Shown here: piece after piece, positions 10,982 to 27,575 of the stretch
Position numbering within the stretch: position 1 is the stretch's first letter
How the letters are laid out: every line of letters begins with the position of its first letter
Origin: Thermoplasmata archaeon
GTDB taxonomy: Archaea > Thermoplasmatota > Thermoplasmata > Sysuiplasmatales > Sysuiplasmataceae
Direction: 5' to 3'
Length of the DNA stretch: 46,530 bases
Assembly (NCBI GenBank): GCA_021817225.1
Contig: JAKAVR010000009.1
Span: 1 to 46,530, forward strand
The notes under the pieces: generated by a model
What the model saw: only the letters and a program-made list of their open reading frames with translations
Told to the model about the DNA's origin: nothing
Database searches by the model: none
Translations under genes and position numbers: made by a program

Positions 10982-11178
10982 TTCAGAACAAGCCCCCACC
11001 CCGCCTGAGTGCACACATATTCCGACCCGTCCACCTCGACCAGCCCTCCAAGATCAACCTGTCCCTCGTAGAAGAGCCTGTTGAGCATCGCGGCAGCTTC
11101 CGGCGGAACGGCCCTCAGGTCGTGCGCCGGGAGCTGCATCGGGTTTCCGACCCTGGCAAGAATCCGCGCCTGCATCAC
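10978..11178 (-). CDS. Small conserved-context protein of unknown function (66 residues)
   Basis: A 66-residue soluble protein beginning MMQARILARVGNPMQL and ending TQAGWGLVLK. It has one cysteine, no transmembrane segment and no recognised motif. It is real by context: its ATG overlaps the Mrp stop by 4 nt and its stop overlaps the DsrE-like start by 4 nt, so it sits inside a tightly coupled stretch of the sHdr operon. The helix ending in LNRLFYEGQVDLGGLVEVDG resembles a small wing or dimerisation module, but no family assignment can be made. Confidence 0.6.
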   Translation of the reverse strand: MMQARILARVGNPMQLPAHDLRAVPPEAAAMLNRLFYEGQVDLGGLVEVDGSEYVCTQAGWGLVLK

Positions 11179-12284: not shown

Positions 12285-12289
12285 CTAGA

Positions 12290-13417
12290 TCAATCCACCG
12301 GCACAATCACCGGATGGGCAACCGCCTCGATTATTGTTGCTGATATGTCCTCGGCGGTCGCACCAATGATGGTGACACCCTCTTCCCTCAATACAGACCT
12401 CACGGCATTCAATACCACGCCCTCGTCGAGGCGAAGGCCCGCAAGCCTCCTTTCAAGGTTCGACAGCGGCCATCCCACCGGGACGGTGAAGAAATCGCCA
12501 GATATTGCCACCTCTTCAATCATTCCGTTGTCGACGAGCATTGTGACCCTTACAAGCTTCTGCGCCTTCCTGTCATATTCACAGAGGAACATTCCCTCCA
12601 TGATCTTCACAATCCTGCCCCTGCGCGCACCCATCCTGCTGCCTGATGCAGAGCGCTCGAATATCCAGTCATCACTTCCTCTCTCCCGGACAAGCTCCCC
12701 GATACGCTCCTCTTCAAGTCCGGTCAGGCTGCCGGCCGAATGGCCGCCGTATGCCTCCGCGAAGGACTCGATGAGCAGTTCCTCCACTTCCCCTCTTTCA
12801 GGAATTCTTCCAAGCTGCTCCCTCACCGATGTCAGGTACTTCGACATGCTGTCGGCAACCTTTCCCCTGAATTTCTCGTCAGGCACCTTCAGTATCCCAC
12901 ACATTGCCTCTATGTTCAAATCCAGGAGTATGTCGCCAGTCAGGACTCTTGCCCTGTCAATGTCCACCGCGCCATTTGCGCTTATCTTCCTTCCACCGAC
13001 GGCAAGGTCGTTGAGCCCCTGCCTTTCGGCATTCACGCCAAGGTGTTTCAGGACCGAGGCAAGCGGTTCAAGCATCCTGCCGTAGTAGTTCTTCAGCGTC
13101 CCGGAGGTTGTTCCGGAGTCGAGCGAGGCGATGAGGAAGTAGTCCTGCTCCCAGGGGCCGTCCGCTATCGCCCCGCCGCCTATCACGCGCCGCACAAGCG
13201 GAATGGAATGCGCCCGGCAGTATTCAATGTCAATCTCCCTTTCGACCTCCTGGTGGAAGCCCGCATTTGCAAAGGGGGCAGATGGATGGCATATCACAAG
13301 CGTATCTCCCCTCTCCCCGCGGGAGACGGATTCGGCAAGAGCCACGAATGCATTTGTCATCACAAGACCGTCGACGGCGCCCAGTCTTATAACTGAAAGA
13401 GAAGGCACCTGATTCAC
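12290..13417 (-). CDS. slpl(AB): Lipoate-protein ligase of sulfur-oxidation type, fused A and B domains (sLpl(AB)-like)
   Basis: A 375-residue ligase. The LplA catalytic domain shows RRVIGGGAIADGPWEQD (about 75-91) and NDLAVGGRKISANGA, in which the family lysine lies. The C-terminal third contains ISGDFF, and LERRLAGLRLDEG follows it. These are features of the LplB/C-terminal accessory domain, so both domains are on one chain. In sHdr loci the sLpl(AB) ligase attaches octanoate or lipoate to LbpA, distinct from the ligases serving glycine cleavage or 2-oxoacid dehydrogenases. It abuts the DsrE-like stop with no gap and lies one gene from lbpA. No LipS1/LipS2 or LipA-type sulfur inserter is present in the window. 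Confidence 0.82.
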   Translation of the reverse strand: MNQVPSLSVIRLGAVDGLVMTNAFVALAESVSRGERGDTLVICHPSAPFANAGFHQEVEREIDIEYCRAHSIPLVRRVIGGGAIADGPWEQDYFLIASLDSGTTSGTLKNYYGRMLEPLASVLKHLGVNAERQGLNDLAVGGRKISANGAVDIDRARVLTGDILLDLNIEAMCGILKVPDEKFRGKVADSMSKYLTSVREQLGRIPERGEVEELLIESFAEAYGGHSAGSLTGLEEERIGELVRERGSDDWIFERSASGSRMGARRGRIVKIMEGMFLCEYDRKAQKLVRVTMLVDNGMIEEVAISGDFFTVPVGWPLSNLERRLAGLRLDEGVVLNAVRSVLREEGVTIIGATAEDISATIIEAVAHPVIVPVD

Positions 13418-13792
13418 CTAGAAGCTTATGACCGAATCTGCATCGAGGGCAAGGTCCGCAAGCGTCGAGGTCCCCACCACCCTCACTCCTTCAATCACAT
13501 CGGATGCCTCAATGTTGCACAGGTCCCTCAGACTCTCCTCGCATACATAGAATTTGACGCCGTTTTCCAATGCCATGTTTATGAACTGCTTGAGGCTGCC
13601 GCCCTTCTTCAGTGCAACCGTTTCCGCCACGCCCTTCTTGAGCAGTTCGGCGGCGTGCATCAGGAAATACATCGATGTGTCAATCTCCATCGCGGCAGAC
13701 AGTGCGGCCGTGTAGATGGGCGCATAGGTCTTGTCCGGATTCTCGGGTCCGTTTGTCATTACATACAGCAGTTTCTTTGTTTCTTCTGTCAT
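13418..13792 (-). CDS. DsrE3-like protein of the sHdr operon
   Basis: A 124-residue DsrE-family protein. TEETKKLLYVMTNGPEN gives the first strand, IYTAALSAAMEIDTSMYF the helix and strand, and KFYVCEESLRDL carries the candidate sulfur cysteine in the family position. DsrE3 proteins receive sulfur from TusA in sHdr-type oxidisers. The ATG at 13792 lies 4 nt past the lbpA stop. The longer frame to 13837 would overlap lbpA. Position between lbpA and the ligase ties it to the lipoate-dependent step. Confidence 0.8.
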   Translation of the reverse strand: MTEETKKLLYVMTNGPENPDKTYAPIYTAALSAAMEIDTSMYFLMHAAELLKKGVAETVALKKGGSLKQFINMALENGVKFYVCEESLRDLCNIEASDVIEGVRVVGTSTLADLALDADSVISF

Positions 13793-13796
13793 GCGC

Positions 13797-14246
13797 TCAC
13801 TTCTGGCACCTGATGCATTTGACGTTGTCCCTCGCAATAATCTCGTTGAACCTTGTCCTGGCCTGGTCCGCCTTGAGCAGACCGGCTACCTCCGCCTGGT
13901 TCGTCACCTTGATCTGCGCGATCCATCCCTCTCCGTAGGGGTCGTCATTTATCAGCACAGGCCGCAGTTCAAGCTGCTCGTTGATCTTTGTTATTGTTCC
14001 TGCCAGGGGGAAGTGGACCGGGCCCGCCCACTTGCCACTCTCAATCGTCGCAACAGGCTTCCCCTTCTCCCTTGAAGTCCCTGGTGCCTTGATGCGCACA
14101 TGCAGTATCCTTCCGGCTCTGGTCTGCGCAGGGTCTGTCAGTCCTATTGTTGCGTTCTCTCCGTCAAGCCTGATCCATGTCATCTGGCTGCCCTCCAGAT
14201 AATAGTGCAGCTCGTCAGGTATCTCGCATCCGTTGATTATTGCCAT
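13797..14246 (-). CDS. lbpA: Lipoate-binding protein of sulfur oxidation (LbpA, GcvH-like)
   Basis: A 149-residue GcvH-fold protein. The lipoyl hairpin has ATIESGKWAGPVHFPLAG, in which the Lys of ESGKW is the predicted lipoylation site, and NDDPYGEGWIAQIKV is the standard H-protein C-terminal strand. In sHdr pathways LbpA is essential and carries sulfur-bound intermediates on its dihydrolipoyl arm, unlike GcvH of glycine cleavage. The neighbours (sHdrB1 upstream, DsrE3 and sLpl(AB) downstream) support LbpA over GcvH. A GGTGA site lies 4-5 nt before ATG 14246. The last residues are CIRCQK, a CxxC tail not needed for the H-protein fold. Confidence 0.88.
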   Translation of the reverse strand: MAIINGCEIPDELHYYLEGSQMTWIRLDGENATIGLTDPAQTRAGRILHVRIKAPGTSREKGKPVATIESGKWAGPVHFPLAGTITKINEQLELRPVLINDDPYGEGWIAQIKVTNQAEVAGLLKADQARTRFNEIIARDNVKCIRCQK

Positions 14247-14256
14247 AAGCTCACCT

Positions 14257-15171
14257 TCAGTATCCCATTCTCTTGAGCACTCCGTTCGCATCCGACAGGT
14301 TCTCCTGTATTGCCATTTCCCTGCGGGAGTGGCCGAACGCGAGCCCCATGAGCTGGGTAAAATAAACAACCGGCCTTATTATTCCAGCGCCGTACTGCTC
14401 CGTGATTTTTGGAATATTCATCTCAATGTTCACCTGGCCCAGGGGGCACATTGTCGAAACCATGTCCGCCCCTGCCCTGGCAGCCTCGTTGAGTATCGCC
14501 GCGCTGAAGCCAATCGACACCTCCCTGTCTGCGATCGTGTGGCCCCCGCCGCAGCATATTGTCTTCACAGGGTAATCGACCGTTGTTGCCCCTGCAGCCT
14601 GAAGAAGCTCATCCATGAAGAACGGGTGCTCCGGGTTGTCCTTCCCCGACTGCAAACCAGCACCGGTGTACACCTTCGGCCTTGTGTACAGGCAGCCGTA
14701 ATAACATGCAACCTTCAGCCCCTTCAGCGGTTTCGTTACCTTCGACCTGACTGCATCAAGCCCAACCGAATTCCTGATCACTTCAAGCACATGCTTGACT
14801 TCCACTTCGCCCCCGTACTGCGGCAGATCGGCCTCTGCAAGGTATTTTCCGAGCCTTTCCCTTGAACCTGAATCCTCGCTTATTGTCTTGTTCGCCCTCG
14901 CAAGAGCATAGACGCAGCCGTTGCATGGGGCGATGACCGTCTTGGCACCCATCTCCTGTGCCAGGGCAAGGTTCCTTGTGGGAAGGAAGACGGAGAGGTC
15001 GTAGCTTATGTTCTTCACCTCCGTTGCACCGCAGCAGTTGTAATCCTTGATCCTGTCCATTGGAATGTCAAGATCCCTGAACACAACTTCCGTCGATTTC
15101 TGGTACGCTTTCCCGAGACCGTCCATTGAGCAGCCGGGGTAGTATGCCATCTTTTCATTTTGTTGAGCCAT
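14257..15171 (-). CDS. shdrB1: sHdrB1: heterodisulfide reductase B-like subunit
   Basis: A 304-residue HdrB-like protein with two CCG domains. The first has YYPGCSMD, NCCGATE and APCNGC. The second has CYYGC, KTICCGGG and TMCPLGQVN. These cysteine sets bind the noncubane [4Fe-4S] clusters that in methanogen HdrB reduce heterodisulfide and in sHdr handle sulfur compounds. ATG at 15171 is chosen for its GAGGCGGAT upstream. ATG 15150 directly before AYYPGC is the alternative. It overlaps sHdrC1 by 17 nt, and lbpA follows after 10 nt. It belongs to the sHdrC1B1AB2 complex core. Confidence 0.9.
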   Translation of the reverse strand: MAQQNEKMAYYPGCSMDGLGKAYQKSTEVVFRDLDIPMDRIKDYNCCGATEVKNISYDLSVFLPTRNLALAQEMGAKTVIAPCNGCVYALARANKTISEDSGSRERLGKYLAEADLPQYGGEVEVKHVLEVIRNSVGLDAVRSKVTKPLKGLKVACYYGCLYTRPKVYTGAGLQSGKDNPEHPFFMDELLQAAGATTVDYPVKTICCGGGHTIADREVSIGFSAAILNEAARAGADMVSTMCPLGQVNIEMNIPKITEQYGAGIIRPVVYFTQLMGLAFGHSRREMAIQENLSDANGVLKRMGY

Positions 15172-15853
15172 AACCATCCGCCTCGAGTATGCTGTCTGCA
15201 ACCTTCTTCATTTTCTTCCAGCCCTTCGTCCTTCTCCTTATTGGGCCGGTCCTCACATTACCGTTCTTTATGATCTTGAATGCCATCCTTGCCATGAAGC
15301 CCCTTGTGAAGTCAGCCGGTTTCTCGCTCCTGACATATTTGAGCGTGAGTCCCAGCTCATCAAGCACGCCTGTGGCCATTATGTTGTCGAGATAGGTCCT
15401 GTCCCACCTTGAACCGGGGGTGTCCTCCGCAATTCCCCTTTTTCTCATCACTTCATCAATTGCGTGGACGACCTCTTCAACCTTGACGCCTTTCGGGCAC
15501 CTCTCGACGCACTTGTTGCAGCTGATGCACCGCCATATCACGTTCTCGTACTTCTTTAGCTCCTCGACATTCCCCGTCTGCGCGAGGTAGATGAAGTACC
15601 TCGGATTGAACTCCCTCAGTCCGTAGTCTGTATGCAGGCAGCATCCCGAAGTGCACGTACCGCACTGCCAGCAGTTGGTCACCGTCTTTCCGCCTTGAAG
15701 TGACTTGACTTCCTGAACGAAATCCTCGTGGTAATCCGTCAGGAGCCGTTCCTTGATGAATGTGTTCCACCTGCCGGAAACATCTACCCCGTCGACGACT
15801 GCTTTTTCCTTCTCGATAACACCGTCGATAAGGCTCTTCTCATGTATGGGCAA
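15155..15853 (-). CDS. shdrC1: sHdrC1: ferredoxin-like HdrC subunit
   Basis: A 232-residue protein with two [4Fe-4S]-binding motifs of HdrC type: NCWQCGTCTSGC (about residue 60) and CISCNKCVERCPKG (about 108). A helical C-terminal domain follows. It would pass electrons between the B1 subunit and the flavin-bearing A subunit. The TTG start at 15853 is well supported by GGAGGG six nt upstream, and an in-frame ATG is absent. It overlaps the Hyp stop by 14 nt and sHdrB1 by 17 nt, so it is tightly coupled. Confidence 0.9.
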   Translation of the reverse strand: MPIHEKSLIDGVIEKEKAVVDGVDVSGRWNTFIKERLLTDYHEDFVQEVKSLQGGKTVTNCWQCGTCTSGCCLHTDYGLREFNPRYFIYLAQTGNVEELKKYENVIWRCISCNKCVERCPKGVKVEEVVHAIDEVMRKRGIAEDTPGSRWDRTYLDNIMATGVLDELGLTLKYVRSEKPADFTRGFMARMAFKIIKNGNVRTGPIRRRTKGWKKMKKVADSILEADGYGSTK

Positions 15854-16511
15854 GGATTTCCCTCCTTATGCCCAGTATCATTGCAGCGAGGACGGTGCTG
15901 TTGGGGAAAAGCGCCTCCATTCCGCCCGAGTTCATTGAGGAGTCCTTCGCTCCCATGATGCCCCCGGCGTAGGCAAGGGAGCACATGATGTCGAGGCCGT
16001 AGAAACCATGTGCGCTGTAGCCGGCCGCATCAAGCACTCGCTTTGCTTCCTGGAGAAGCGTCTGCCTTGCCGTAAAGCCGGAAGGAACTTCTCCCCTGAC
16101 GGCTCCCGAAAGTGCACCCTTCCCGTTTTCCGGGTTGAAGACCCATCTCGTGCACAGTCCGAACCTGTCAGGATTCAGAAAATGTATCGACTCCATTGCA
16201 ACATCCTCAAGCGCTCCCGCAGGCGCGCCATTGAGGGAGGAAAAACGCTGTATCGGGACGTTTGGCTCGATGCTTGACACGCGCAGCGACTTAAGCGCCG
16301 CGTTGAGTTGTTCAATGCTGTTGCCCGAGATAATCTCCTTTGAATGCCTCCTTGCCGAAAGGAAGCTGCCGAAGAATGAGCCGAAATCTCCATCCGTCAA
16401 TTCTTCCCTGTCCCTGACAATTGAAAGGAGCTTCGCCGTCTTCGAGCGAAGCCCGCCGGTGAAAATGTCAAGCTCCTTCTGTGAAAGTGAGCCGAGTGTT
16501 GCCCCAGCCAT
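15840..16511 (-). CDS. Hyp protein of the sHdr cluster
   Basis: A 223-residue protein (243 if started at ATG 16571). Many sHdr loci have the order hdrC1-B1-A-hyp-C2-B2, with a conserved unnamed protein beside hdrA. This gene lies directly after sHdrA and fits that place. It has three cysteines or fewer in scattered positions, no Fe-S motif and no membrane span. It contains FNPENGKGALSGAVRGEVPSGF and an alanine/glycine-rich C-terminal region that may be a small-molecule or partner interface. ATG 16511 has GGAG nine nt upstream and avoids a 41-nt overlap with sHdrA. The longer start is possible. Confidence 0.72.
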   Translation of the reverse strand: MAGATLGSLSQKELDIFTGGLRSKTAKLLSIVRDREELTDGDFGSFFGSFLSARRHSKEIISGNSIEQLNAALKSLRVSSIEPNVPIQRFSSLNGAPAGALEDVAMESIHFLNPDRFGLCTRWVFNPENGKGALSGAVRGEVPSGFTARQTLLQEAKRVLDAAGYSAHGFYGLDIMCSLAYAGGIMGAKDSSMNSGGMEALFPNSTVLAAMILGIRREILAHT

Positions 16512-16530
16512 TGAAACAAGCTCCGTGCTT

Positions 16531-17598
16531 TCAAGCGCCGGCCGGTACCTTGATTGTCCTTCTTCTGACATAATTCAGCGCCTTCATTGCAGCGGCAGAC
16601 CCTTCCGTTATTGAATCGGGTATGGCCTTTGGTCCCGTGGCCGTTCCGCAGACATACACTCCGGGGACGGCGGTGCTGACGGGCATGGAATCGGACTCGA
16701 GTGGTTTGATGAAGCCATGTTCCTCAATTTCCAGGCCAAGCAGCTTCGATGCCTCAAGCGTTCCCTCGCTCGCCTCCATGCCGGTGGCAAGTATGACCAT
16801 GTCGAACGGCACTTCGCTTGGCCTCTGAAGTATTGTGTCCTCGGCCATGGCTATCAGCCTTCCATCCTCCCCCTTGTTTATCGAGCCGATTCTGCCCCGG
16901 ATGTACTTCACTCCATATTCCTCCATTGACTTCCAGTACAGCTTGTCCTCCCAGAATCCGTATGTCCTGATGTCCATGTAGTAGACGTAAGTGTCAATCT
17001 CCGGATGTATTCGGCGGACTTCCATCGCCTGCTTTATGCTCACGGCGCAACCGAGCCTGCAGCAGTAGAACTTGCCAACCTGCTTGTCCCTTGAGCCAAC
17101 GCAGAGCAGCCATGCGATCCTCTTTGGCTGCTGACCGTTTGACGGCCTGACTATCTTCTCATCGCTGAGCATCTTCTCGAAGTCCTTGAAATCAATGACG
17201 TCGGGATAGACGCCATAGGCGTACTCGTATTTCTTGTGAGGGTCCCAGTGGGAGAACCCCGTGGCAACAATGACCGCATCGACGCTCTCACTGACCGAAG
17301 TTCCGTTGCTTTCAATGGTGACATTGAATCTTCCGCCCTTCTTCTCAACCGATTTCACACTCGCGCCGAGGAGTCTGCGCACACTTGAATTCTCAACACT
17401 GCTGATCAGCGGATCGAGCACTTCTTCCACGGGCTTCATGTCAGGGGCCAGGAGGCTGTAGTGCAGCTTCTTTGGCGTGCCGCCAAGAAAAGTCTCCTTT
17501 TCGACAAGTATTGCATCTCCTCCCGCTTCCGCTATGTCCTGGGCAGCGCTCAGCCCGGAAGGCCCTCCTCCTATTACAAGAAACTTGGGGTTTGTCAA
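16531..17598 (-). CDS. shdrA: sHdrA: FAD-binding HdrA-like subunit
   Basis: A 355-residue flavoprotein. VIGGGPSGLSAAQDIAEAGG near the N-terminus is the FAD motif. LLCVGSRDK, then FYCCRLGCAVSIKQA, is the HdrA signature around an Fe-S site. TGMEASEGTLE and VCGTATGPKAI are later nucleotide and FAD contacts. It is much shorter than methanogen HdrA and lacks the extra ferredoxin domains, as expected for the sulfur-oxidising sHdrA. The TTG start at 17598 has GGAGA seven nt upstream. Electrons from sulfur oxidation would reach the FAD here. Gaps are 13 nt to sHdrB2 and 19 nt to Hyp. Confidence 0.9.
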   Translation of the reverse strand: MTNPKFLVIGGGPSGLSAAQDIAEAGGDAILVEKETFLGGTPKKLHYSLLAPDMKPVEEVLDPLISSVENSSVRRLLGASVKSVEKKGGRFNVTIESNGTSVSESVDAVIVATGFSHWDPHKKYEYAYGVYPDVIDFKDFEKMLSDEKIVRPSNGQQPKRIAWLLCVGSRDKQVGKFYCCRLGCAVSIKQAMEVRRIHPEIDTYVYYMDIRTYGFWEDKLYWKSMEEYGVKYIRGRIGSINKGEDGRLIAMAEDTILQRPSEVPFDMVILATGMEASEGTLEASKLLGLEIEEHGFIKPLESDSMPVSTAVPGVYVCGTATGPKAIPDSITEGSAAAMKALNYVRRRTIKVPAGA

Positions 17599-17611
17599 TT
17601 TGCCGTCTCCT

Positions 17612-18859
17612 TCAGTTATCCATTATCACATGTCCCTTGTTCACCGCAAAATACTTCTCCATCTCGTCGTGGGGCTTGTACAGCATCTCCGGCTCCTTGC
17701 CCTTCTGAAGCTCCTCAATGTAGTTGCTGAAATCCTTCTTGTAGAAAGCGACATCAAACCCCATCTTCTCAAGCAGTTTGTCCGTGGGGGAACTGTGCCA
17801 GTGTATCTGCACAATCTTGTATGGGTGTGCACCCGCGGCGAGGGCCGCAAACTGAACATCCGAAAGGACGGGGAGCATGTAATCCATGCCGTGGCTCTTT
17901 CCTATCCACTGGCTTTTGTCCAGCGTGGTGACACAACCTGTGTCCGTCGTGATTGCAACATCCGCATGGGCTTCCTCCACCATTGGTTTGATCTTCCTGA
18001 GCGTTGCAAAAGACCTGCTGAATTCCCTCTCTGTAAGTATGTGCCTGAAGCCAAAACCACAGCAGTCATACCATGTGCTGTAGTCTGCGACTTTCGCCCC
18101 AAGCGCCTGGACCACCGCAGTCGGCGGTGCCGGTCTCTGGCCGCCATTCGTGTCTTTCTCGTAAACTGCGTCCTCGGGCACCATCTTGTAGTAATGGCAT
18201 GGTTCGTGGACGGTGGCTGTGATGCCATCCATCTTCATCTTCACCATGGACGCCATTTCCTTTCTCTTGACGTGCACCCATTCGCTGTAATGCACAATCT
18301 CCTCGGGAATCACAAGTTCCTTCCCCATGTGGTGCATTATGTCCCTCACCTTGTCCCTGACCTCCTTGTTCTCAACAAGCAGCTTGCGCATCTCCTTGTA
18401 GTCGCCGAAGCTTGTGCCGCAGTGGATCAGCGGGAAGGTGCCCGTCTCATAGGCCCTGTACCAGTTCCTGACTGCGACCGCAGCCAGCGCAATCGGGTTG
18501 GAAGTGCCCGAGCCATGATAGTTCCAGGCGGTGCAGGAAGTCTGGTGCGGCTCGTTCAGATAATTGGTCTTGAACTGATTCATGAACCAGAGGAGCGATG
18601 ACGGATAGCCCGGAATATTGCCGCACTGTCCGCAGGACTTGTGGTGCCACAGGTAGTCCGTGGGTATTTTTTTCTTCCAGCCGAAGAGCGTCTCCACCTC
18701 GATCGGCTTGTTCTTCTGCTCTATGGGAATGACTACGAGCTCGCCCTTTTCGTGGAGGTTCCACATCTCCTCGCGGACATCGTGCACCTTCTTGTCGGAG
18801 TAGATCCTCGCATTGGCCCTCTCGGAAAGAACATCCCTGATTTGGTCGGCATTGAGCAT
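17612..18859 (-). CDS. shdrB2: sHdrB2: HdrB-like subunit
   Basis: A 415-residue protein with CCG-type cysteine motifs. It includes SCGQCGNIPGYP, HQTSCTAWNYHG, HEPCHYYKM and WYDCCGFGFRH. TDTGCVTTLDKSQ further on would complete a second noncubane-cluster site. In sHdr complexes B2 is the second HdrB-like subunit, and its active cluster is thought to bind or cleave sulfur substrates. A helical N-terminal stretch (LNADQIRDVLSERANARIYS) precedes the first cysteines. ATG 18859 lies 3 nt past sHdrC2. The length is about 100 residues above sHdrB1, which is normal for B2. Confidence 0.9.
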   Translation of the reverse strand: MLNADQIRDVLSERANARIYSDKKVHDVREEMWNLHEKGELVVIPIEQKNKPIEVETLFGWKKKIPTDYLWHHKSCGQCGNIPGYPSSLLWFMNQFKTNYLNEPHQTSCTAWNYHGSGTSNPIALAAVAVRNWYRAYETGTFPLIHCGTSFGDYKEMRKLLVENKEVRDKVRDIMHHMGKELVIPEEIVHYSEWVHVKRKEMASMVKMKMDGITATVHEPCHYYKMVPEDAVYEKDTNGGQRPAPPTAVVQALGAKVADYSTWYDCCGFGFRHILTEREFSRSFATLRKIKPMVEEAHADVAITTDTGCVTTLDKSQWIGKSHGMDYMLPVLSDVQFAALAAGAHPYKIVQIHWHSSPTDKLLEKMGFDVAFYKKDFSNYIEELQKGKEPEMLYKPHDEMEKYFAVNKGHVIMDN

Positions 18860-18862
18860 GTT

Positions 18863-19633
18863 TCAGACCCCAATTCCGTATTTTTCCTTCATCTCTTCGA
18901 ACTCCTCTCTCCATTCGTCAACTATGTCCTCGATCATCTCGACAAGGTCGGGGTCAATCGACTTGAGCATATCCACGACGCCTGCCTCCTTGTAAATCTG
19001 GAAAAGCTCAAGCGACGTCTGCATTGAAACTTCCCATGATGAATCTGTTACCTGAAGAACGTCGACCGGGATTGCCTTGCGCAGCGTCTTGATGTCTGTT
19101 TGCCTTGCTACGGCGAATGGTCCCCAGTCAGCGAAGAAATCGGGCTGGATCATATCGGGCGACACCTGTGTGCCCTTTGTCATGACCACGAGCAGTATCC
19201 TGCTGTACGGCTTCAGCACCTCCTTCGCGCTCTCCAGGCCGTTCTTCACTGCAAGCTCCCTCATCACGCTTATGATGCCTGCAATGTCATTGCCGAACCT
19301 GCACCTCATGTTGCATGTATAGCACTGGCAGCATGCCCAGATTTTCTCCTGCATCGCATCCAGGAGAACAAGCGGATCGTCCTGATAGGCTATCTGGAGC
19401 ATTTCCCTGGGGCTGAAATTGTAAAAGCGCGCAGCGGGGCAGCCCGTCGTGCACTCGCCACAGTTTATGCAGCCCAGCACATACTCCTTGTACCTGAAGT
19501 CTGACTTGAAATCCCTGAAAATGCTCGCGGCAAGCGCCTCCGTCTGATCGTCGTGGGGTCTTGCTCCCGCGATCACCATTGAAGACTGGACGGGCTCAGT
19601 CTTCTTTCTCGGAAGGTTCTGGAGTACAGTCAT
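18863..19633 (-). CDS. shdrC2: sHdrC2: ferredoxin-like HdrC subunit, first gene of the operon
   Basis: A 256-residue protein with two [4Fe-4S] motifs: CINCGECTTGCPAARFY (about residues 54-70) and CCQCYTCNMRCRFGN (about 100). NFSPREMLQIAY between them is typical of HdrC. A helical C-terminal domain follows. It is the first gene of the 13-gene minus-strand operon. ATG 19633 is preceded by AGGTGAG at eight nt and by a TATA box at about -85, implying a roughly 60-nt leader. It would link B2 to sHdrA. Confidence 0.9.
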   Translation of the reverse strand: MTVLQNLPRKKTEPVQSSMVIAGARPHDDQTEALAASIFRDFKSDFRYKEYVLGCINCGECTTGCPAARFYNFSPREMLQIAYQDDPLVLLDAMQEKIWACCQCYTCNMRCRFGNDIAGIISVMRELAVKNGLESAKEVLKPYSRILLVVMTKGTQVSPDMIQPDFFADWGPFAVARQTDIKTLRKAIPVDVLQVTDSSWEVSMQTSLELFQIYKEAGVVDMLKSIDPDLVEMIEDIVDEWREEFEEMKEKYGIGV

Positions 19634-19840: not shown

Positions 19841-21088
19841 CTACCCTGCCGGCATTCCGTTCCCGCTGCTTCGCACATGCATTATTTCGGTTCTGCCCGC
19901 CGAGGTTGAACTCGCGAGCTTCGAGGCATCGACTCTGAGGACTTGCGAAGTATGCAATGAATCCTCCTCCATCGCTTCATTTGCCCCGCCTTTGGCCACA
20001 AGCTGTGGCAGTGACTGTGCGAACCTCACCCAGCCACTTTCCGAAAGCATGAGTGCCTTCAGAAGCGGATTATCTATCCGCCTGCTGCATCCGGGGCAGC
20101 ATATGGCACCGCCGTTCCTGTCCCTTGATCTTGGGAGTCTCTCCCCGCATGCGGGACATCTTTGCGCATCGCCCATCTGCTGCTTTCTGAGGTGCAGCAC
20201 TATTGTGCCGTTCCACCTTGCCTTGTATTCAATCTCTCTCTTTACTTCGCCGAACTGCCAGGCATTTGTCCACTTGTTCACGAATTTCTGCTTTCTGCCG
20301 GTGCCATGACTCGTTTCGGCAAATACAATCACTTCCGACATATTTTTCGCAGAGTCGACAACATCTCTTGTCACCGAATGGAGAATATGTGCGGTCCTGT
20401 TCATCCTGCGTTTTGTATACTTCTCTGCTATCCTGCTTTTTATCCTGTTGTCCCTTCTCGAGACGGATGAAATTATTTCCGCCGTAGTTCTCTTGAGCTT
20501 CACAACCTTGCGGAGGTCATACTGAAGCGCTGCCCCGCCGCCTGCAACAATCAGGCCGGTCGAATTTCCATCCACCCCGAGTGCACCGTGAAAGGGGGCG
20601 GCATCTTCAACGTTCTTTGTTATGCAAAGCGAAAGTGAACCCTCCGAAAGGCTGAATGAATTTACCTTGACTCCTTCGGACCATATCTGCTCAAGCGTGT
20701 GACTGTTCAATTCGATCTCCTCGAAGACCCTGTTGTCAATCGGTATCCGCAGCATGCCATTTTCAGTGATGACAAATCCGTAGCACGATACGAGGTTCGG
20801 GGCAGACATGTAAGGATTTTTCGTGCTGACGCCCCTTCTAAGGGACTTCTTCCTGGATGCAAGGATGCCTGACGCCTTGGAAATGGCACATAACCTGTAA
20901 TACGACGGCACCTGGTATTTCCTGAGTTCGCCGTATGTGAGCCGCGAGAGCCTGCGGAGCGTCGAGCAGTCATTCAGTATTCCCGCCTGAATGCAGTCGT
21001 TTACCATCGACTTGAAGTGAGTCATCAGTGACATTATGCGCGGTGAAGGCGAGTAGGTCTGCATGACGCACTTTCTTGCTAGCACGGG
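19841..21088 (-). mobile_element. tnpB: Lone TnpB-like (IS605 OrfB) RuvC nuclease gene
   Basis: A 415-residue TnpB-like protein. RuvC-I is LGVDGNSTGLIVAG, RuvC-II VIVFAETSHG, and the zinc finger CPACGERL, then CCPGC. After this comes RRIDNPLLKAL in place of the usual DRDxNAAxNI, so an acidic residue remains but RuvC-III is diverged. TnpB proteins are RNA-guided nucleases of IS200/IS605 elements. No TnpA and no clear left or right end are seen. GTG 21088 is chosen because a TATA element is centred about 33 nt upstream, but TTG 21112 is possible. It separates the sHdr operon from the apr operon. It is either a decayed insertion or a resident TnpB. Any guide RNA would probably overlap its 3' end near 19700-19850. 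Confidence 0.75.
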
Positions 21089-21115
21089 GAGTCTCAGCGG
21101 AGTAAACGCCAAAAG

Positions 21116-21214: not shown

Positions 21215-22000
21215 ATGAAACTTGCAGTCATATCGGATATTCATGGAAACCTGGTGACGCTTGAGGCAGTACTTGCTGATATGAGGGGTAGAGGCATCGA
21301 TTCAATTGTGTGCCTTGGCGATGTTATTGCCACCGGTCCGAGGCCGGTTGAATGCCTCGAGACCGTAAAGGGGCTCGCCTGTCCAGTCGTCTTGGGTAAC
21401 ACCGATGAGCGTTTCATAAGCGGAGGCAAGGGGTTTGGCAAGGCAGGAGGCAAGGAAGTCCACATGCTTGAGAAGATGTTTGAATGGACTTCGTCAAAGC
21501 TTTCATCTTCACATCTGAAGTTCATGGAGACGTTCAAACCCACTTTGTCGATAGATCTCCCGGGAGGCAGTTCACTCCTCTGCTACCACGGATCTCCGCG
21601 TTCAAACAGGGAGCTGATCACTTCTTCCACTTCGGAGGAGAAGATGCATGAGATATTTTCCGGTGAGGAGAATCACCAGCTGTATGCAGGGGGTCATTCA
21701 CATGCTCAGATGCTCAGGACGCATGGCAGCTCTGTGATATTCAACCCGGGGAGCGTTGGTCTTCCCTTTGTCAAGCTCAGCGACGGCAGGGCGGTGAACA
21801 TTCCGAGGGGCGAGTATGCAGTTGTGGAAGCTGATACGAATGGAGTCAGGATAGAATTCTGCAGAGTGAACGTCGATGTGAAAAAGATAATGGACGACGG
21901 CCTTTCCAGCGGCCTTCCATATTCTGATGTCTGGGCCTCAGACTGGGGGACTCCGGAAGGAATCACTAAAACGGACAAAAAAACTAATAACGGGATGTAG
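21215..22000 (+). CDS. Calcineurin-like metallophosphoesterase (YfcE/DR1281-type)
   Basis: A 261-residue phosphoesterase. The metal motifs are clear: ISDIHGN (residues 6-12), CLGDVIATG, LGNTDER, CYHGSPRS and GGHSHAQM, ending the core with FNPGSVGLP. It is cytosolic, with no signal sequence. Such enzymes hydrolyse phosphodiesters or nucleotides using a di-metal centre. The C-terminal 60 residues are more variable. It lies 25 nt upstream of aprM on the same strand, so read-through into the apr genes is possible, although no functional link is evident. Its promoter diverges from that of tnpB. Confidence 0.88.
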   Translation: MKLAVISDIHGNLVTLEAVLADMRGRGIDSIVCLGDVIATGPRPVECLETVKGLACPVVLGNTDERFISGGKGFGKAGGKEVHMLEKMFEWTSSKLSSSHLKFMETFKPTLSIDLPGGSSLLCYHGSPRSNRELITSSTSEEKMHEIFSGEENHQLYAGGHSHAQMLRTHGSSVIFNPGSVGLPFVKLSDGRAVNIPRGEYAVVEADTNGVRIEFCRVNVDVKKIMDDGLSSGLPYSDVWASDWGTPEGITKTDKKTNNGM

Positions 22001-22025: not shown

Positions 22026-22775
22026 ATGTGGTCCGTCAATCCGTTCACCAACCTGACTGTATTTCTGTCTCCTCTTGTGATGCAGGTTTACATTGTCCTT
22101 ATGATTCTCTCCGTTGCCCTTGGAACGGTGTATGACCTGCTCCATGGAAGCAAGACAAAGTTCTTCTCAAGGCAGCGGGCCAAAGCAAAGGCCCTTGCAA
22201 AGAAGGAACTCACTGGCGGGGAGAAGGCTGCGATTGCGGCAAAGACTGCCGTTACGGTCATAGCCGTGTCGGGCGAGTTCCACGAGCGCGGCAGAAGGAT
22301 ATCGCACATGCTCATGAATTACGGCTTCGTCCTCTATCTTCTCACGACGGTAATCATGATATTCGTCTACCCCACAGATGTCAGGACGCCTGTGGCACTC
22401 CCGGTCCTCTGGAACCTTGGTGCCCTTCTGATCATTGCAGGCGGCTACTGGTTCTTCTTTGTGCTTCGTGTCAACGTATCCCACGACGGCGATTCGCCGC
22501 TGAAGCTGATTAGGGCGGACCTGTTCATCTTTTCGCTTATCTCCGGTGTGACATTTGCAATACTCATGGAGATGGTGGAGGTAGCACAGAACACAATTGC
22601 GACAGGCGTGTTCTTCGCCTTCTATATATTCTTCACGACCATCCTGTTTGTCACCATACCATGGTCCAAGTTCTCTCACATGTTCTACAAGCCGGGGGTT
22701 GCGATACAGAGAAGACTGGAAGAGGCAAGCGGTTCCTCAGATCTACCCTCGCCCGCTGATGGCCACAATCTTTGA
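22026..22775 (+). CDS. aprM: AprM-like membrane anchor of APS reductase
   Basis: A 249-residue membrane protein with about five hydrophobic segments, including PLVMQVYIVLMILSVALGTV, YGFVLYLLTTVIMIFVY, LWNLGALLIIAGGYWFFFVL, LFIFSLISGVTFAIL and FYIFFTTILFVTIPW. The pattern and a histidine in SKFSHMFYKPG resemble nitrate-reductase-gamma/HdrE-type anchors. It directly precedes aprBA, as AprM does in sulfur oxidisers that lack QmoABC. Role: it would link APS reductase to the quinone pool. Start ATG 22026 follows the phosphoesterase stop by 25 nt, and longer in-frame starts overlap that gene. The aprB gene begins 11 nt after its stop. Confidence 0.78.
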   Translation: MWSVNPFTNLTVFLSPLVMQVYIVLMILSVALGTVYDLLHGSKTKFFSRQRAKAKALAKKELTGGEKAAIAAKTAVTVIAVSGEFHERGRRISHMLMNYGFVLYLLTTVIMIFVYPTDVRTPVALPVLWNLGALLIIAGGYWFFFVLRVNVSHDGDSPLKLIRADLFIFSLISGVTFAILMEMVEVAQNTIATGVFFAFYIFFTTILFVTIPWSKFSHMFYKPGVAIQRRLEEASGSSDLPSPADGHNL

Positions 22776-22786
22776 GTGTGATCCAA

Positions 22787-23242
22787 ATGCCAACGTTTGT
22801 TTACATGACGAAGTGCGACGGATGCGGAAAGTGTGTTGACATATGTCCCTCGGACATAATGCACATAGACCCTGTGTACAGGAGAGCGTTGAACATAGAG
22901 CCGAACTTCTGCTGGGAATGCTACTCATGCGTCAAGGAGTGCCCGCAGAATGCGATCGATGTCAGGGGATATGCCGATTTTGCTCCTCTGGGACACAGCG
23001 TGCGTGTACTTCGTGAGCCGGAGAAGGGGACAGTTTCCTGGAAGATCCGCTACAGGGATGGGAGGCTCAAGGAATTCACCTTCCCGATTAGGACGACCCC
23101 GTGGGGTTCGATAAGGGGTCCTTCACAGTATGATGCTCCAGACACTAAGGGGCTCTCTTCGCCGCTGCTTGCCCATGAGCCAGAAGCGCTCAAGATCGAG
23201 AAGCTGCCGACACTTCCGGCAGAAGGAAAGAAGCAGGTGTGA
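22787..23242 (+). CDS. aprB: Adenylylsulfate (APS) reductase beta subunit, AprB
   Basis: A 151-residue ferredoxin-type subunit. The first cluster motif is CDGCGKCVDICPSD (about residues 9-22), the second CWECYSCVKECPQNAID (about 44-60). AprB homologues then continue with a conserved RGYADFAPLG and a C-terminal tail that wraps AprA, represented here by PIRTTPWGSIRGPS. It shuttles electrons between AprA flavin and the membrane partner. ATG 22787 (MPTFVYM) matches the usual AprB start. A TTG at 22772 overlapping the aprM stop is the alternative. Confidence 0.92.
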   Translation: MPTFVYMTKCDGCGKCVDICPSDIMHIDPVYRRALNIEPNFCWECYSCVKECPQNAIDVRGYADFAPLGHSVRVLREPEKGTVSWKIRYRDGRLKEFTFPIRTTPWGSIRGPSQYDAPDTKGLSSPLLAHEPEALKIEKLPTLPAEGKKQV

Positions 23243-23247
23243 GACAG

Positions 23248-25092
23248 ATGGGTCTTTTCTCTTCAAGAAAGACAAGGGTCGTTGATTCCGACGTACTGAT
23301 AATAGGAGGGGGGTTCGGCGGCTGCGGAGTGGCCTACGAATCAAGGTACTGGGGAAGGGACATGAAGATCGTCGTTGTCGAGAAGGCCAACATAGAAAGG
23401 AGCGGCGCAGTTGCTCACGGCCTTTCTGCGATCAACTGTTACATGGGAATGCAGTGGGGGGAGAACCAGCCCGATGACTTCGTCAGGTATGCAAGGGGAG
23501 ACCTTCTGGGACTTGTAAGGGAGGATCTGCTGTATGATATCGCCAGGCATGTGGACTCAAGCGTCCACCAGTTCGAGGAATGGGGATTACCCATAATGAA
23601 GGACCCCAAGACGGGTCACTACCAGAGGGAGGGAAGGTGGCAGATAATGATACACGGCGAAAGCTACAAGCCGATTGTGGCAGAAGCCGCCAGAAAATCA
23701 GCCACTGAGGTAATCAATCGCGTAATGGTCACTCACCTGCTCATGGACAGGACAAGGCCGAACAGGGTTGCGGGCGCAGTCGGTTTTAACGTCAGGGATG
23801 GTACATTCTACGTCTTCAGGGCGAAGTCGGTTGTAGTCACCGCTGGAGGGGCATCCCACATATTCAGGCCAAGATCCATTGGCGAGGGCGCAGGCAGAAC
23901 ATGGTACTCCCCATGGAGCACGGCATCCGCCTACACGCTCCTGATTCAGGCCGGCGCCAAGATGATCCAGATGGAGAACAGGATAGTCCTCACCCGCTTC
24001 AAGGACGGTTACGGGCCTGTCGGTGCATGGTTCCTTCTTCTGAAGACATACGCCACAAACGCTTACGGGGAGAAATACGAGGCATCCAGGTTTGACGAGA
24101 TCAAGGCGCTTGTCGGGAAGTATGCCGAAATCAAACCGATGCCTACCTGCCTTAGAAACCATGCGATGATTCAGGAAATGAAAGCCGGGAAGGGCCCGAT
24201 CTACATGCATACTCAGGAATCGCTCGACAGCAAGGAAAAAGAGGAGATCGGGTGGGAGGACTTCCTCGACATGACAATAGACCAGGCAGTCGTCTGGGCG
24301 TCGCAGAATATTGACCCGAAGGAGAAGCCTTCCGAACTCATCGCCTCCGAGCCATATGTAATGGGGTCGCATGCAACATGCTCTGGTGCATGGGCCAGCG
24401 GTCCAGAGGACTTCGCGCCCTCCGATTACCAGTGGGGGTACAACAGAATGACCACGGTGGAGGGCCTTTTCGGTGCGGGTGACACAATAGGAGGCTCCGC
24501 TCACAAATTCTCTTCAGGCTCATTCACGGAAGGAAGGATTGCAGGCAAGTCCGCGGTGAAGTATGTGCTTGACCATGCGAACGACCCGCCCCAGATCGAC
24601 GAGGCGCAGATTGACACCTACAGGGAACTGATTTTCAGGCCCCTCGAGAATTTCGAGGTAGGGAGAAACGAAATAGTCGCAGGCACAGTCGCTCCCGGAT
24701 ACATCTATCCTATACACGGTCTTCAGAGGCTCGAAAAGATAATGGATGAATACGCGGGAGGGGTCAGCACCTTCTATCTCACAAACGAACCAATGCTCAA
24801 CAGGGGGCTTGAGCTTCTTGGCATGCTGAAGGAGGATCTTGCGCACATAGGTGCCGATAGCATGCATCAGCTGCAGAGGGCATGGGAGCTTAACCACAGG
24901 GTCTGGACGGCCGAGGCTGTCATGAGGCACACTCTGTTCAGGCAGGAGACTAGATGGCCGGGCTACTACTACAGGGGCGATCATCCAAAGCTCAATGACG
25001 ACGACTGGCATGTCTTTACCTGCTCACAGTACATTCCGAAGACCGACGAGTGGCAGATGACAAAACTGCCAGTGCACCACATCTTGCCCTGA
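23248..25092 (+). CDS. aprA: Adenylylsulfate (APS) reductase alpha subunit, AprA
   Basis: A 614-residue flavoprotein of the fumarate-reductase fold, normal in length for AprA. VLIIGGGFGGCGVAYE is the N-terminal FAD motif. VVVEKANIERSGAVAHGLSAINCY and LFGAGDTIGGSAHKFSSGSF are diagnostic of AprA, and ARGDLLGLVREDL is also conserved. It interconverts APS and sulfite plus AMP. ATG 23248 has AGGTG eight nt upstream. A GTG at 23239 overlapping the aprB stop would add three residues. The sequence alone cannot tell oxidation from reduction, but sat, aprM and the sHdr genes point to oxidation of sulfite. Confidence 0.94.
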   Translation: MGLFSSRKTRVVDSDVLIIGGGFGGCGVAYESRYWGRDMKIVVVEKANIERSGAVAHGLSAINCYMGMQWGENQPDDFVRYARGDLLGLVREDLLYDIARHVDSSVHQFEEWGLPIMKDPKTGHYQREGRWQIMIHGESYKPIVAEAARKSATEVINRVMVTHLLMDRTRPNRVAGAVGFNVRDGTFYVFRAKSVVVTAGGASHIFRPRSIGEGAGRTWYSPWSTASAYTLLIQAGAKMIQMENRIVLTRFKDGYGPVGAWFLLLKTYATNAYGEKYEASRFDEIKALVGKYAEIKPMPTCLRNHAMIQEMKAGKGPIYMHTQESLDSKEKEEIGWEDFLDMTIDQAVVWASQNIDPKEKPSELIASEPYVMGSHATCSGAWASGPEDFAPSDYQWGYNRMTTVEGLFGAGDTIGGSAHKFSSGSFTEGRIAGKSAVKYVLDHANDPPQIDEAQIDTYRELIFRPLENFEVGRNEIVAGTVAPGYIYPIHGLQRLEKIMDEYAGGVSTFYLTNEPMLNRGLELLGMLKEDLAHIGADSMHQLQRAWELNHRVWTAEAVMRHTLFRQETRWPGYYYRGDHPKLNDDDWHVFTCSQYIPKTDEWQMTKLPVHHILP

Positions 25093-25102
25093 GGGTGTTA
25101 CA

Positions 25103-26263
25103 ATGATACCACAGCCTTATGGCGGCAGGCTTGTGAACCGGCTTGTCAGACACGGCGCAGGAGATGGAATGGACGATTACGGTTCTCTCCCATCTATTCA
25201 GCTCACGCTGGATGAGAGCTATGATGCCGAGAAGATTGGCATAGGCGCGTACAGTCCGCTCGAAGGGTTCAGTTCAGAGTCAGAGTTCGAAAGCATAACA
25301 TCGGGCACGAAGCTGGAGAACGGGCTGCCGTGGAGCATGCCAATCGTCCTCGCTCCATCAGGGAAGAGGAACACGGAGACGGTCGAAAGGCTCAGGGCAG
25401 GGGATGCGGTGCTTCTCAACGACCACTCGGGGAATCCTCTTGCTATCCTCCACCTCTCCGGGAAATACGCTCTCCGGAAAGACAGGTTTGCGGAGAGGGT
25501 ATACGGAACGAAGGACACGAAGCATCCGAACGTGGAGGAAATACACAACATGGGCACGACCGCCCTTGGCGGAAGCATCGACCTTCTGCGCAGGCTCGAA
25601 AGCCCCTTCTCAAAGTATGAGCTCACCCCGGAGGAAAGCAGGGAGCAGTTCAGCAGAAAGGGATGGAAGAATGTCGCAGCATACCAGGCAAGGAATCCAC
25701 CCCATCTCGCACACGAGTACATACAGCGCATAACGCTCGAGAGGGATGACGTCGACGGGCTCTTCATACAGCCTGTCGTGGGCAAGCTGAAGAAGGGTGA
25801 CTACAAGCCTGAAGTGATCATGGAGGCGTATGACGCCTTCGTTTCAAAATACTACAGGGGGGAGAGTGTCCTTCTCGGTTCACTTTCAATCTCAATGCGC
25901 TACGCCGGCCCGAAGGCGGTGCTTTTCTACGCGATCGTGCGCAGGAATTACGGCTGCTCCCACTATATTGTCGGCAGGGACCAGGCAGGTGTCGGCAGCT
26001 ACTACGACCCGTACGCCGGCCACAGGATATTCGATGAATTCGATGTTGGTGTCACCCCCATTAGGTACAATGAGACATTCTACTGCTCCGCCTGCAAGGG
26101 AATGACGTCAACAAAGGTGTGTCCTCATCCTGAATCATACAGGGTGAACACAAGCCAGACAAGAATAAGGCGGATACTCGCCGAGGGAGGGGAAATTCCG
26201 AATGAGATAATAAGGCCCGAGGTCGCCTCCATTCTTGCCAGGGGAAACGTCACAATCGAGTGA
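25103..26263 (+). CDS. sat: Sulfate adenylyltransferase (ATP sulfurylase)
   Basis: A 386-residue ATP sulfurylase. The nucleotide-binding core has QARNPPHLAHEY (about residues 195-206) and VGRDQAGVGSYYDPY (about 288-302), the positions of the family QxRNPxHxxH and GRDHAG motifs. A cysteine set in FYCSACKGMTSTKVCPH is the zinc site seen in many archaeal and sulfur-oxidiser Sat proteins. With APS it yields ATP and sulfate (reverse: sulfate activation). It follows aprA by 10 nt and GAGGGTG precedes the ATG, so it is the last gene of the aprM-B-A-sat operon. It converges with the minus-strand phosphatase-like gene 16 nt away. Confidence 0.95.
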   Translation: MIPQPYGGRLVNRLVRHGAGDGMDDYGSLPSIQLTLDESYDAEKIGIGAYSPLEGFSSESEFESITSGTKLENGLPWSMPIVLAPSGKRNTETVERLRAGDAVLLNDHSGNPLAILHLSGKYALRKDRFAERVYGTKDTKHPNVEEIHNMGTTALGGSIDLLRRLESPFSKYELTPEESREQFSRKGWKNVAAYQARNPPHLAHEYIQRITLERDDVDGLFIQPVVGKLKKGDYKPEVIMEAYDAFVSKYYRGESVLLGSLSISMRYAGPKAVLFYAIVRRNYGCSHYIVGRDQAGVGSYYDPYAGHRIFDEFDVGVTPIRYNETFYCSACKGMTSTKVCPHPESYRVNTSQTRIRRILAEGGEIPNEIIRPEVASILARGNVTIE

Positions 26264-27113: not shown

Positions 27114-27575
27114 TCAGAGGAACAGTGTTATCGCGTCGGGGTCTGATGCCCACTCGAGGAACGTTGCCGCCCCGCAGACATCAACGCCGCTGTAGGCAAG
27201 GCTCTCCTTGGTTGTGCCGAACAGGGCCATTGTCGGTGAGCATGCGTTGACGCGTACGCCCGACTGAATTGCCATGTTCATCATCTGGTCGATTGAAGGC
27301 ATGCCGCCCTTGCTTATGAGGCCAACCATCTGCTGCTTTGTCATGCCTATGTCCACGCTTGGGCTCACTCCCTCAGTCTGTCCCTTGGTAAGCAGCTTCA
27401 TTCCTCCGAATGTGAAGTACATGTAGACCTCCATTCCCTGTGAGGCCGCTGTCGTCGCAAGTATAAGCGCCGGATAGGCTGTATCCATTGTACCCTTGCT
27501 TACAACCATGACAAGTTTGTTCTTTCTCTTTGCTTCCTGCGAGGACTGCTCCCTTTGCATCTGTGCTGTTTCCAT
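27114..27575 (-). CDS. DsrE2-like protein
   Basis: A 153-residue DsrE-family protein. KLVMVVSKGTMDTAYPAL gives the first strand and loop, MEVYMYFTFGGMKLL the second strand, and RVNACSPTMALFG carries the single conserved cysteine of DsrE2. SGVDVCGAATFLEW follows. DsrE2 proteins sit in sHdr and TusA contexts in archaea and accept sulfur from TusA. Residues 1-20 are polar and variable. ATG 27575 is used, with a start nearer LVMVVSKG possible. It is the last sulfur gene of the island on this side, with a gap of 39 nt to the 90-residue gene. Confidence 0.8.
   Translation of the reverse strand: METAQMQREQSSQEAKRKNKLVMVVSKGTMDTAYPALILATTAASQGMEVYMYFTFGGMKLLTKGQTEGVSPSVDIGMTKQQMVGLISKGGMPSIDQMMNMAIQSGVRVNACSPTMALFGTTKESLAYSGVDVCGAATFLEWASDPDAITLFL

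Follow-up and report, generated by a model that had tools for sequence, protein, structure and literature searches.

How an uncultured archaeon of the Thermoplasmata might oxidize sulfite to sulfate, and from where it obtained the genes to do so, are the questions raised by a four-gene locus, aprM-aprB-aprA-sat, at positions 22026–26263 of the DNA analyzed here. This stretch, hereafter the window, comprises the 46,530 nucleotides of contig JAKAVR010000009.1 (C2; positions 1 to 46,530, forward strand) in assembly GCA_021817225.1, a metagenome-assembled genome (MAG) of 1.97 Mb that is 95% complete with 1.6% contamination. The locus is likely a sulfite-oxidation operon in which the membrane protein AprM links adenosine 5′-phosphosulfate (APS) reductase, AprBA, to the quinone pool.

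All four genes are encoded on the forward strand, separated by 11, −4, and 10 nt, and may be co-transcribed. The gene aprM (22026–22775) begins at ATG 22026, has a stop codon ending at 22775, and encodes an integral membrane protein of 249 aa. The APS reductase beta subunit, with eight cysteines for two 4Fe-4S clusters, is encoded by aprB (22787–23242; start ATG 22787, with TTG 22772 as a possible alternative), and the flavin adenine dinucleotide-containing alpha subunit by aprA (23239–25092), whose start at GTG 23239 gives a 4-nt overlap with the aprB stop; ATG 23248 would be an alternative. The final gene, sat (25103–26263), encodes an ATP sulfurylase of archaeal type.

The identities of the three enzymes are clear from family models. 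AprA scored 980 bits against an NCBIfam equivalog cut-off of 641.75 and AprB 184 bits against 135.65, while Sat exceeded the cut-offs of both NF003166 and TIGR00339. In an alignment with AprA of Archaeoglobus fulgidus, residues N74, E141, W234, R265, L278, and H398, which we take to be those of the active site, are all matched in the window. The type of AprBA is indicated by the beta subunit. Qmo-linked AprB proteins carry a charged loop after Cys-B13, whereas AprB of lineage I, which accompanies aprM, lacks the loop (PMC2211403). The window AprB reads CDGC-GKC at this stretch, without the KGx[DE][KR] loop that is present in five reference proteins (L158, L160, L166, L175, and L187), and a similar five-residue insert occurs in three others (L114, L181, and L184). 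A lengthened, largely acidic loop between strands 8 and 9 is a further mark of lineage-I AprB; the window protein has REPEKG, two residues longer than the Qmo-type RGTD, at what may be this loop. The preliminary description of this DNA was thus borne out in reporting an aprM-aprB-aprA-sat operon, in assigning it to an archaeon, as the sister records bear the name Thermoplasmata archaeon, and in likening it to the arrangement of sulfite-oxidizing bacteria: aprM directly precedes aprBA, and AprB is of the lineage-I type.

The arrangement recurs well beyond the window. The order aprM-aprB-aprA-sat is repeated in two sister MAGs, Thermoplasmata archaea TL1-5.bin102 (L034) and DBS2-5.bin48 (L035), with AprA identities of 90% and 89%, and also in three Sysuiplasma-type loci (L082, L085, and L086) with AprM of 30% identity. 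L034 and G331, a genome of the same genus as the window, gave identical matches and were counted as one. Among the best 80 of at least 592 AprA relatives in the genome collection, 79 loci have an AprM homologue upstream of aprA, so the linkage of AprM to aprBA is not due to chance; in the sole exception, L053, the contig ends inside aprB. Automatic open reading frame calling was poor in several G+C-rich loci (including L117, L118, L120, L130, and L131), for which only tblastn results were used. An aprA above the cut-off was found in 19 of 389 Thermoplasmatota genomes. No AprA was found in viral contigs, and two distant records were found in plasmids. Misbinning or recent import of the window locus was considered and rejected because the locus recurs with the same flanks in three MAGs and its composition is native.

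The L053 genome (G401) is named SAR202 (Chloroflexota), and its AprA is 74% identical to that of the window and groups with a Rhodospirillales sequence, which reflects either transfer or misbinning. An unannotated record that is labeled a plasmid of Klebsiella pneumoniae (NZ_CP061967.1, 19839–21725; L187) contains homologues of AprA, AprB, and Sat, of which AprA groups with lineage II; it is perhaps a contaminant contig. One genome (G354, contig C12) has two aprBA copies about 16 kb apart (L126 and L127), and the second adjoins an sHdr cluster and falls in a different clade.

If the enzymes resemble those of sulfite oxidizers, what is AprM? A 2013 account (PMC3779200) states that AprM resembles no known domain and no known cofactor site. 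The window AprM has no Pfam match and reaches 42 bits against the QmoC model (cut-off 300), over the membrane part only. An alignment of 66 AprM sequences was built from the window and 65 of 76 references, with L053, L038, L080, and L106 excluded as cut contigs; identity to the window is 75–80% for the two sister MAGs and 27–57% for the 63 others. Profile comparison of these 66 sequences with five QmoC sequences gave an hhalign probability of 97.6% (E = 4.4e-12), which identifies AprM as a homologue of the QmoC membrane (cytochrome b) domain at the level of sequence profiles and rules out that it is a protein without relatives. Of the histidines, only His94 and His218 are invariant across the 66 sequences. 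Both are likewise invariant in a set of 21 rows to which the distant L132 belongs, and they align opposite His235 and His360 of QmoC, both of which are invariant in the five QmoC sequences. An AlphaFold2 model of AprM (mean predicted local distance difference test 88, predicted template modeling score 0.82) is structurally most similar to EtfD (Z 10.5), followed by eight chains of NarI (Z 9.5–10.2) and then by the next unrelated protein at Z 7.9. By sequence, AprM gave only a spurious repeat match in the PDB. AprM thus resembles the membrane cytochrome b domains of QmoC, NarI, and EtfD in sequence homology to QmoC, two aligned invariant histidines, and predicted fold; it differs from QmoC in that it lacks the HdrC-type Fe-S domain, one conserved QmoC histidine is missing, and the haem is only predicted. 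Because of the QmoC homology, the aligned invariant histidines, and the NarI/EtfD-like predicted fold, AprM is suggested to be a haem-b electron entry point, probably with one haem b and a site for quinone, rather than a bare anchor.

The neighborhood of the operon suggests a source of sulfite. An sHdr-LbpA cluster including an Mrp gene spans 11175–19633, divergent to the apr operon, and sHdr produces sulfite in Hyphomicrobium denitrificans (PMC10332631), which makes AprBA-Sat a natural next step after sHdr. In the proposed route, the adjacent sHdr-LbpA system would supply sulfite and may be physically coupled to AprBA-Sat; cytoplasmic AprBA would convert sulfite and adenosine monophosphate to APS; and Sat would use APS and pyrophosphate to form sulfate and ATP. 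As a predicted five-helix protein of the NarI/QmoC type, AprM would dock AprBA and hand electrons to the quinone pool, probably via one haem b on His94 and His218, and the quinol could be re-oxidized by cytochrome bd, which is encoded in the genome of the window (E = 1.4e-89). The oxidative, quinone-linked APS route that had been proposed for this operon is supported by the lineage-I-type AprB without the Qmo loop, by the failure to find dsrA in the same genome (0/1), by sHdr-LbpA and a sulfide:quinone reductase (SQR)-like gene in the window, and by the cytochrome bd.

Several points weigh against this interpretation. No invariant histidine of AprM corresponds to His342, the third conserved histidine of QmoC. 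Z scores near 10 are moderate when helical bundles are compared and fall short of about 13, which the tool regards as safe, and Foldseek alone gave a best E value of 0.06 for the AprM model, with no match below 0.001. No haem-copper oxidase was found in the genome of the window (0/1), and in the two sister genomes cytochrome bd was found as pieces with stops in one and gave no match in the other. Both AprBA and Sat are reversible, so the direction of the reaction is not fixed by sequence. All of the evidence comes from MAGs, and a Qmo-like cluster elsewhere in the genome is a possible electron partner of AprBA.

In G331, cytochrome bd subunit I (contig C1, 2407–3640; L191) lies in three pieces with in-frame stops, which is either a broken gene or the result of assembly errors. 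The reversibility of AprBA and Sat would also allow the operon to act reductively, in assimilation or sulfate respiration, but the genome has no dsrA, AprA falls outside the sulfate-reducer group, and the genomic neighbors are sulfur-oxidation genes, so a reductive role is very improbable. Reductive sulfate respiration in particular was ruled out by the missing dsrA.

The Qmo-like cluster bears on the preliminary description, which had contrasted the operon with Qmo-linked systems. This holds for the operon and its flanks, which contain no qmoABC, but not for the genome, as genes similar to FlpD, QmoA, QmoB, and QmoC stand in a row on another contig (C1 29542–34664; L138 5542–10664), and a Qmo-like cluster below the QmoC cut-off occurs in all three genomes of the group. 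The description had named AprA in the archaeal sulfate-reducer clade, with qmoABC elsewhere, as what would refute it, and this applies by half: AprA falls outside the clade of Archaeoglobus, yet the genome does encode Qmo-like genes on a different contig. This cluster could be the true electron partner of AprBA, with AprM a mere anchor or auxiliary protein, an idea favored by the gene row and by the retention of QmoC, at 84–86% identity, in the window genome and both named sisters. Against it, the QmoC-like protein on C1 scores 261 bits (250–261 across the group), below the NF038018 equivalog cut-off of 300, whereas the apr-linked QmoC of another Thermoplasmata genome, G113, scores 390. FlpD on C1 is a separate gene of 140 aa that is not fused to QmoB, and we take a fusion of the FlpD/MvhD domain to QmoB to be a canonical feature of QmoABC.

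The affiliations of the C1 cluster point the same way. QmoC is found at E ≤ 1e-20 in 4 of 389 Thermoplasmatota genomes (that of the window, a genus mate, G113, and G040), and in none of three Sysuiplasma-type genomes. G113 has, besides the Qmo next to its aprBA, a second FlpD-QmoA-QmoB-QmoC set not linked to apr, and it is this set (QmoA 55%, QmoB 43%) together with the cluster of G040 (QmoA 53%, QmoB 44%) that is nearest to the C1 cluster; the C1 QmoA-like protein is 33% identical to the true apr-linked QmoA of G113, and the QmoC-like protein is equidistant (28–29%) from the two G113 copies and G040. G040 has no aprA above the cut-off. Because its closer relatives are the apr-unlinked G113 set and the cluster of a genome without aprA, the C1 cluster is probably a different Hdr/Qmo-like complex. 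It is perhaps the “type II” complex, reported from organisms with or without Apr (PMC10504309). Together with the missing Qmo loop in the window AprB, these results make a Qmo complex on C1 improbable as the partner of AprBA. The locus of G113 itself (contig C4; L114) has an Archaeoglobus-type sat, aprBA, and canonical Qmo, unlike the other Thermoplasmatota loci examined.

Where, then, did the operon come from? Horizontal gain from bacteria had been suggested, with a check by trees and composition. The window AprA is 80–82% identical to that of the nearest Betaproteobacteria. With the Sysuiplasma types it shares 71%, with most other Thermoplasmatota 63–69%, with G054 56%, and with G113 52%. 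The bacterial sampling comprised 299 Pseudomonadota and 301 Chloroflexota genomes. Trees were rooted with a long-branched outgroup of Chloroflexota and lineage II, to which Archaeoglobus was added in a 60-row AprA tree that supersedes a smaller first tree and omits D. gigas as a long branch. In the 60-row tree, the three archaea (the window and its sisters) and all 26 lineage-I bacteria form one clade (100/100), within which the bacteria group together (95/86) and outside which lie the other Thermoplasmatota groups; Archaeoglobus and G113 are far from this clade, as are lineage II and Chloroflexota. The window AprA is therefore outside the sulfate-reducer group and sister to all sampled lineage-I bacteria, and whether the archaea are included under the name “lineage I” is a matter of definition. 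The bacterial clade was recovered again in a second AprA tree (97/96), in a tree of the same shape from AprM only (93/78), and, without the archaea, in an AprB+A+M tree (99/98.7).

Approximately unbiased (AU) tests were performed on trees of 43 rows (second AprA tree) and 27 rows (AprB+AprA), from which L130, L132, and L114 were dropped as long branches or far types. A single clade of all archaeal AprA was rejected (p = 0.0006 for AprA, 1.7e-5 for AprB+A), as was a single clade of all other archaea (p = 0.005 for AprB+A), a clade that was chosen after the trees had been seen. Placement of the archaea inside the betaproteobacterial sequences gave p = 0.02–0.03 for AprB+A+M, 0.22–0.24 for AprA alone, and 0.18 for AprM alone. 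The f5/f14 group changes position between trees.

Composition and distances were compared with those of the surrounding genes. The codon usage of aprMBA is native, as 409 of 443 control gene sets deviate equally or more, and the GC content of the locus is 0.52–0.55 versus about 0.66 in the bacterial loci. The distance from the window to Sysuiplasma, divided by that between two Sysuiplasma types, is 1.09 for both AprA and Sat, 1.05 for AprB, and 0.93 for AprM; AprA is no outlier because this ratio falls within the range of 0.92–1.77 for the seven sHdr-cluster genes with data. Both sat and sHdr are archaeal by sequence, closest to Sysuiplasma and other Thermoplasmatota: Sat is 58–59% identical to the Sysuiplasma types and at most 42% to the bacterial loci.

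The suggested gain from bacteria is therefore not supported: the locus has a native composition, its companions sat and sHdr are of archaeal affiliation, and the trees place all sampled lineage-I bacteria in a single clade that excludes the archaeal trio and is nested within the AprBA of Thermoplasmatota. The operon has the look of an old resident of these archaea, with the proteobacterial lineage-I aprMBA as its sister or derivative, and inheritance within these archaea with one export to Proteobacteria is the simplest reading. In this scenario, to which we assign somewhat less than an even chance, lineage-I Proteobacteria obtained aprMBA from a relative of this genus, where it had been inherited with sat and sHdr within the Thermoplasmatota. 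It accords with the nesting of the bacteria and the three archaea among Thermoplasmatota AprBA, with the rejection of both archaeal clades, and with the recurrence of the sulfur island, rearranged, in Sysuiplasma. On the other hand, the sampling of relatives and of bacterial phyla was limited, Thermoproteota were unsampled, the outgroup is long-branched, the f5/f14 group is unstable, the clade of other archaea was a post hoc choice, and several transfers from an unsampled bacterial stem are possible.

A rather unlikely alternative is that the genus gained aprMBA from sulfur-oxidizing bacteria, by replacement or insertion next to sat and sHdr at an archaeal locus. The higher identity of AprA to Betaproteobacteria than to Sysuiplasma would fit such a gain, as would that of AprM (at most 57% against 30%); neither AprA alone nor AprM alone rejects the archaea inside the beta-type bacteria, and every tree would be compatible with an unsampled donor from the stem lineage of these bacteria. 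The joint AprB+A+M tree, however, keeps the bacteria apart and disfavors the archaea among the betas, codon usage is native, the GC content is below that of the bacterial loci, and the distances to Sysuiplasma scale like those of the neighboring sHdr genes. Returning to export from the archaea, its combination with the proposed role of AprM, in which lineage-I aprMBA came from a member of the Thermoplasmata close to this genus and AprM, derived from QmoC, took the place of Qmo as a subunit that reduces quinone with a single haem instead of being an inert anchor, is put forward tentatively and with considerable doubt.

Compared with known systems, the operon is of a known kind, and its archaeal members are new. 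The sat-aprMBA genes of Allochromatium vinosum and Apr lineage I of sulfur-oxidizing bacteria share with the window AprM directly before AprBA, Sat in the operon, AprB without the Qmo loop, and an operon without qmo (PMC3779200, PMC2211403). The window differs in its archaeal host, in having sat after rather than before aprMBA and of archaeal type, in the adjacent sHdr cluster, in the lack of dsrA, and in the Qmo-like cluster elsewhere in the genome; the absence of qmo homologues from the genome is a reported correlate of lineage I, whereas the window genome has this sub-cut-off cluster. Candidatus Sysuiplasma superficiale (L086) and FK5.bin12/YP4.bin50 (L082, L085) share gene order, HdrA and HdrB1 at 72–80% identity, and DsrE2 and low-molecular-weight (LMW)-phosphatase-like genes, but differ in their more distant AprA and AprM and in lacking a QmoC match. 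The sat-aprBA-qmo locus of G113 and AprBA of A. fulgidus belong to the same enzyme family, and G113 to the same archaeal class, but G113 has a more divergent AprA in a separate clade, a Qmo-type AprB insert, canonical QmoC beside apr, and no AprM that was found.

Among the papers listed in searches of open-licence literature, none describes aprM in archaea. The founding paper of the Sysuiplasmatales reportedly mentions oxidation of reduced sulfur compounds in its abstract, and sulfur oxidation by these archaea is thus not new as a general idea. The window adds a complete putative route from sulfane to sulfate (SQR-like, sHdr-LbpA, AprMBA-Sat) within about 20 kb of an acidophile-associated archaeon. 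With an archaeal sister group for the proteobacterial aprMBA, it becomes possible to test which way a major gene transfer of the sulfur cycle went, and the hypotheses of reversed transfer and of haem in AprM are both open to test.

The sulfur-oxidation genes around the operon are mostly on the minus strand. The sHdr cluster with lbpA and lipoate ligase (12290–19633) has the order hdrC1-B1-A-hyp-C2-B2, in names that follow the gene order in Hyphomicrobium. It consists of HdrC1-like (18863–19633), HdrB1-like (17612–18859), HdrA-like (16531–17598), a fast-evolving Hyp protein without a family match (15840–16571), HdrC2-like (15155–15853), and HdrB2-like (14257–15201) proteins, followed by the GcvH-like lipoate-binding protein LbpA (13797–14246), a DsrE-family sulfur carrier (13418–13837), a lipoate-protein ligase (12290–13417), and an Mrp/ApbC-type Fe-S P-loop NTPase (11175–12284). 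A DsrE2-type sulfur carrier (27114–27575, minus strand) also occurs in the Sysuiplasma locus (71%), and the island including DsrE2, LMW-phosphatase-like, and phosphoesterase genes is present there in rearranged form. After the SQR-like gene (7223–8377, plus strand; NF049943, 338 bits, below the cut-off of 525) come DsrE-like and DUF1641 genes, which reach to 9671.

A calcineurin-like phosphoesterase gene (21215–22000) ends 25 nt upstream of aprM on the same strand and is kept at that place in both sister MAGs, and it possibly opens the operon in these genomes; its homologue in Sysuiplasma L086 is located directly 3′ of sat. Between this gene and the sHdr cluster lies a TnpB-like gene (19841–21112, minus strand; guided_TnpB, 48.5 bits, cut-off 100), which looks fixed in the group since it occupies the same position in L034 and L035, with 68–70% identity.

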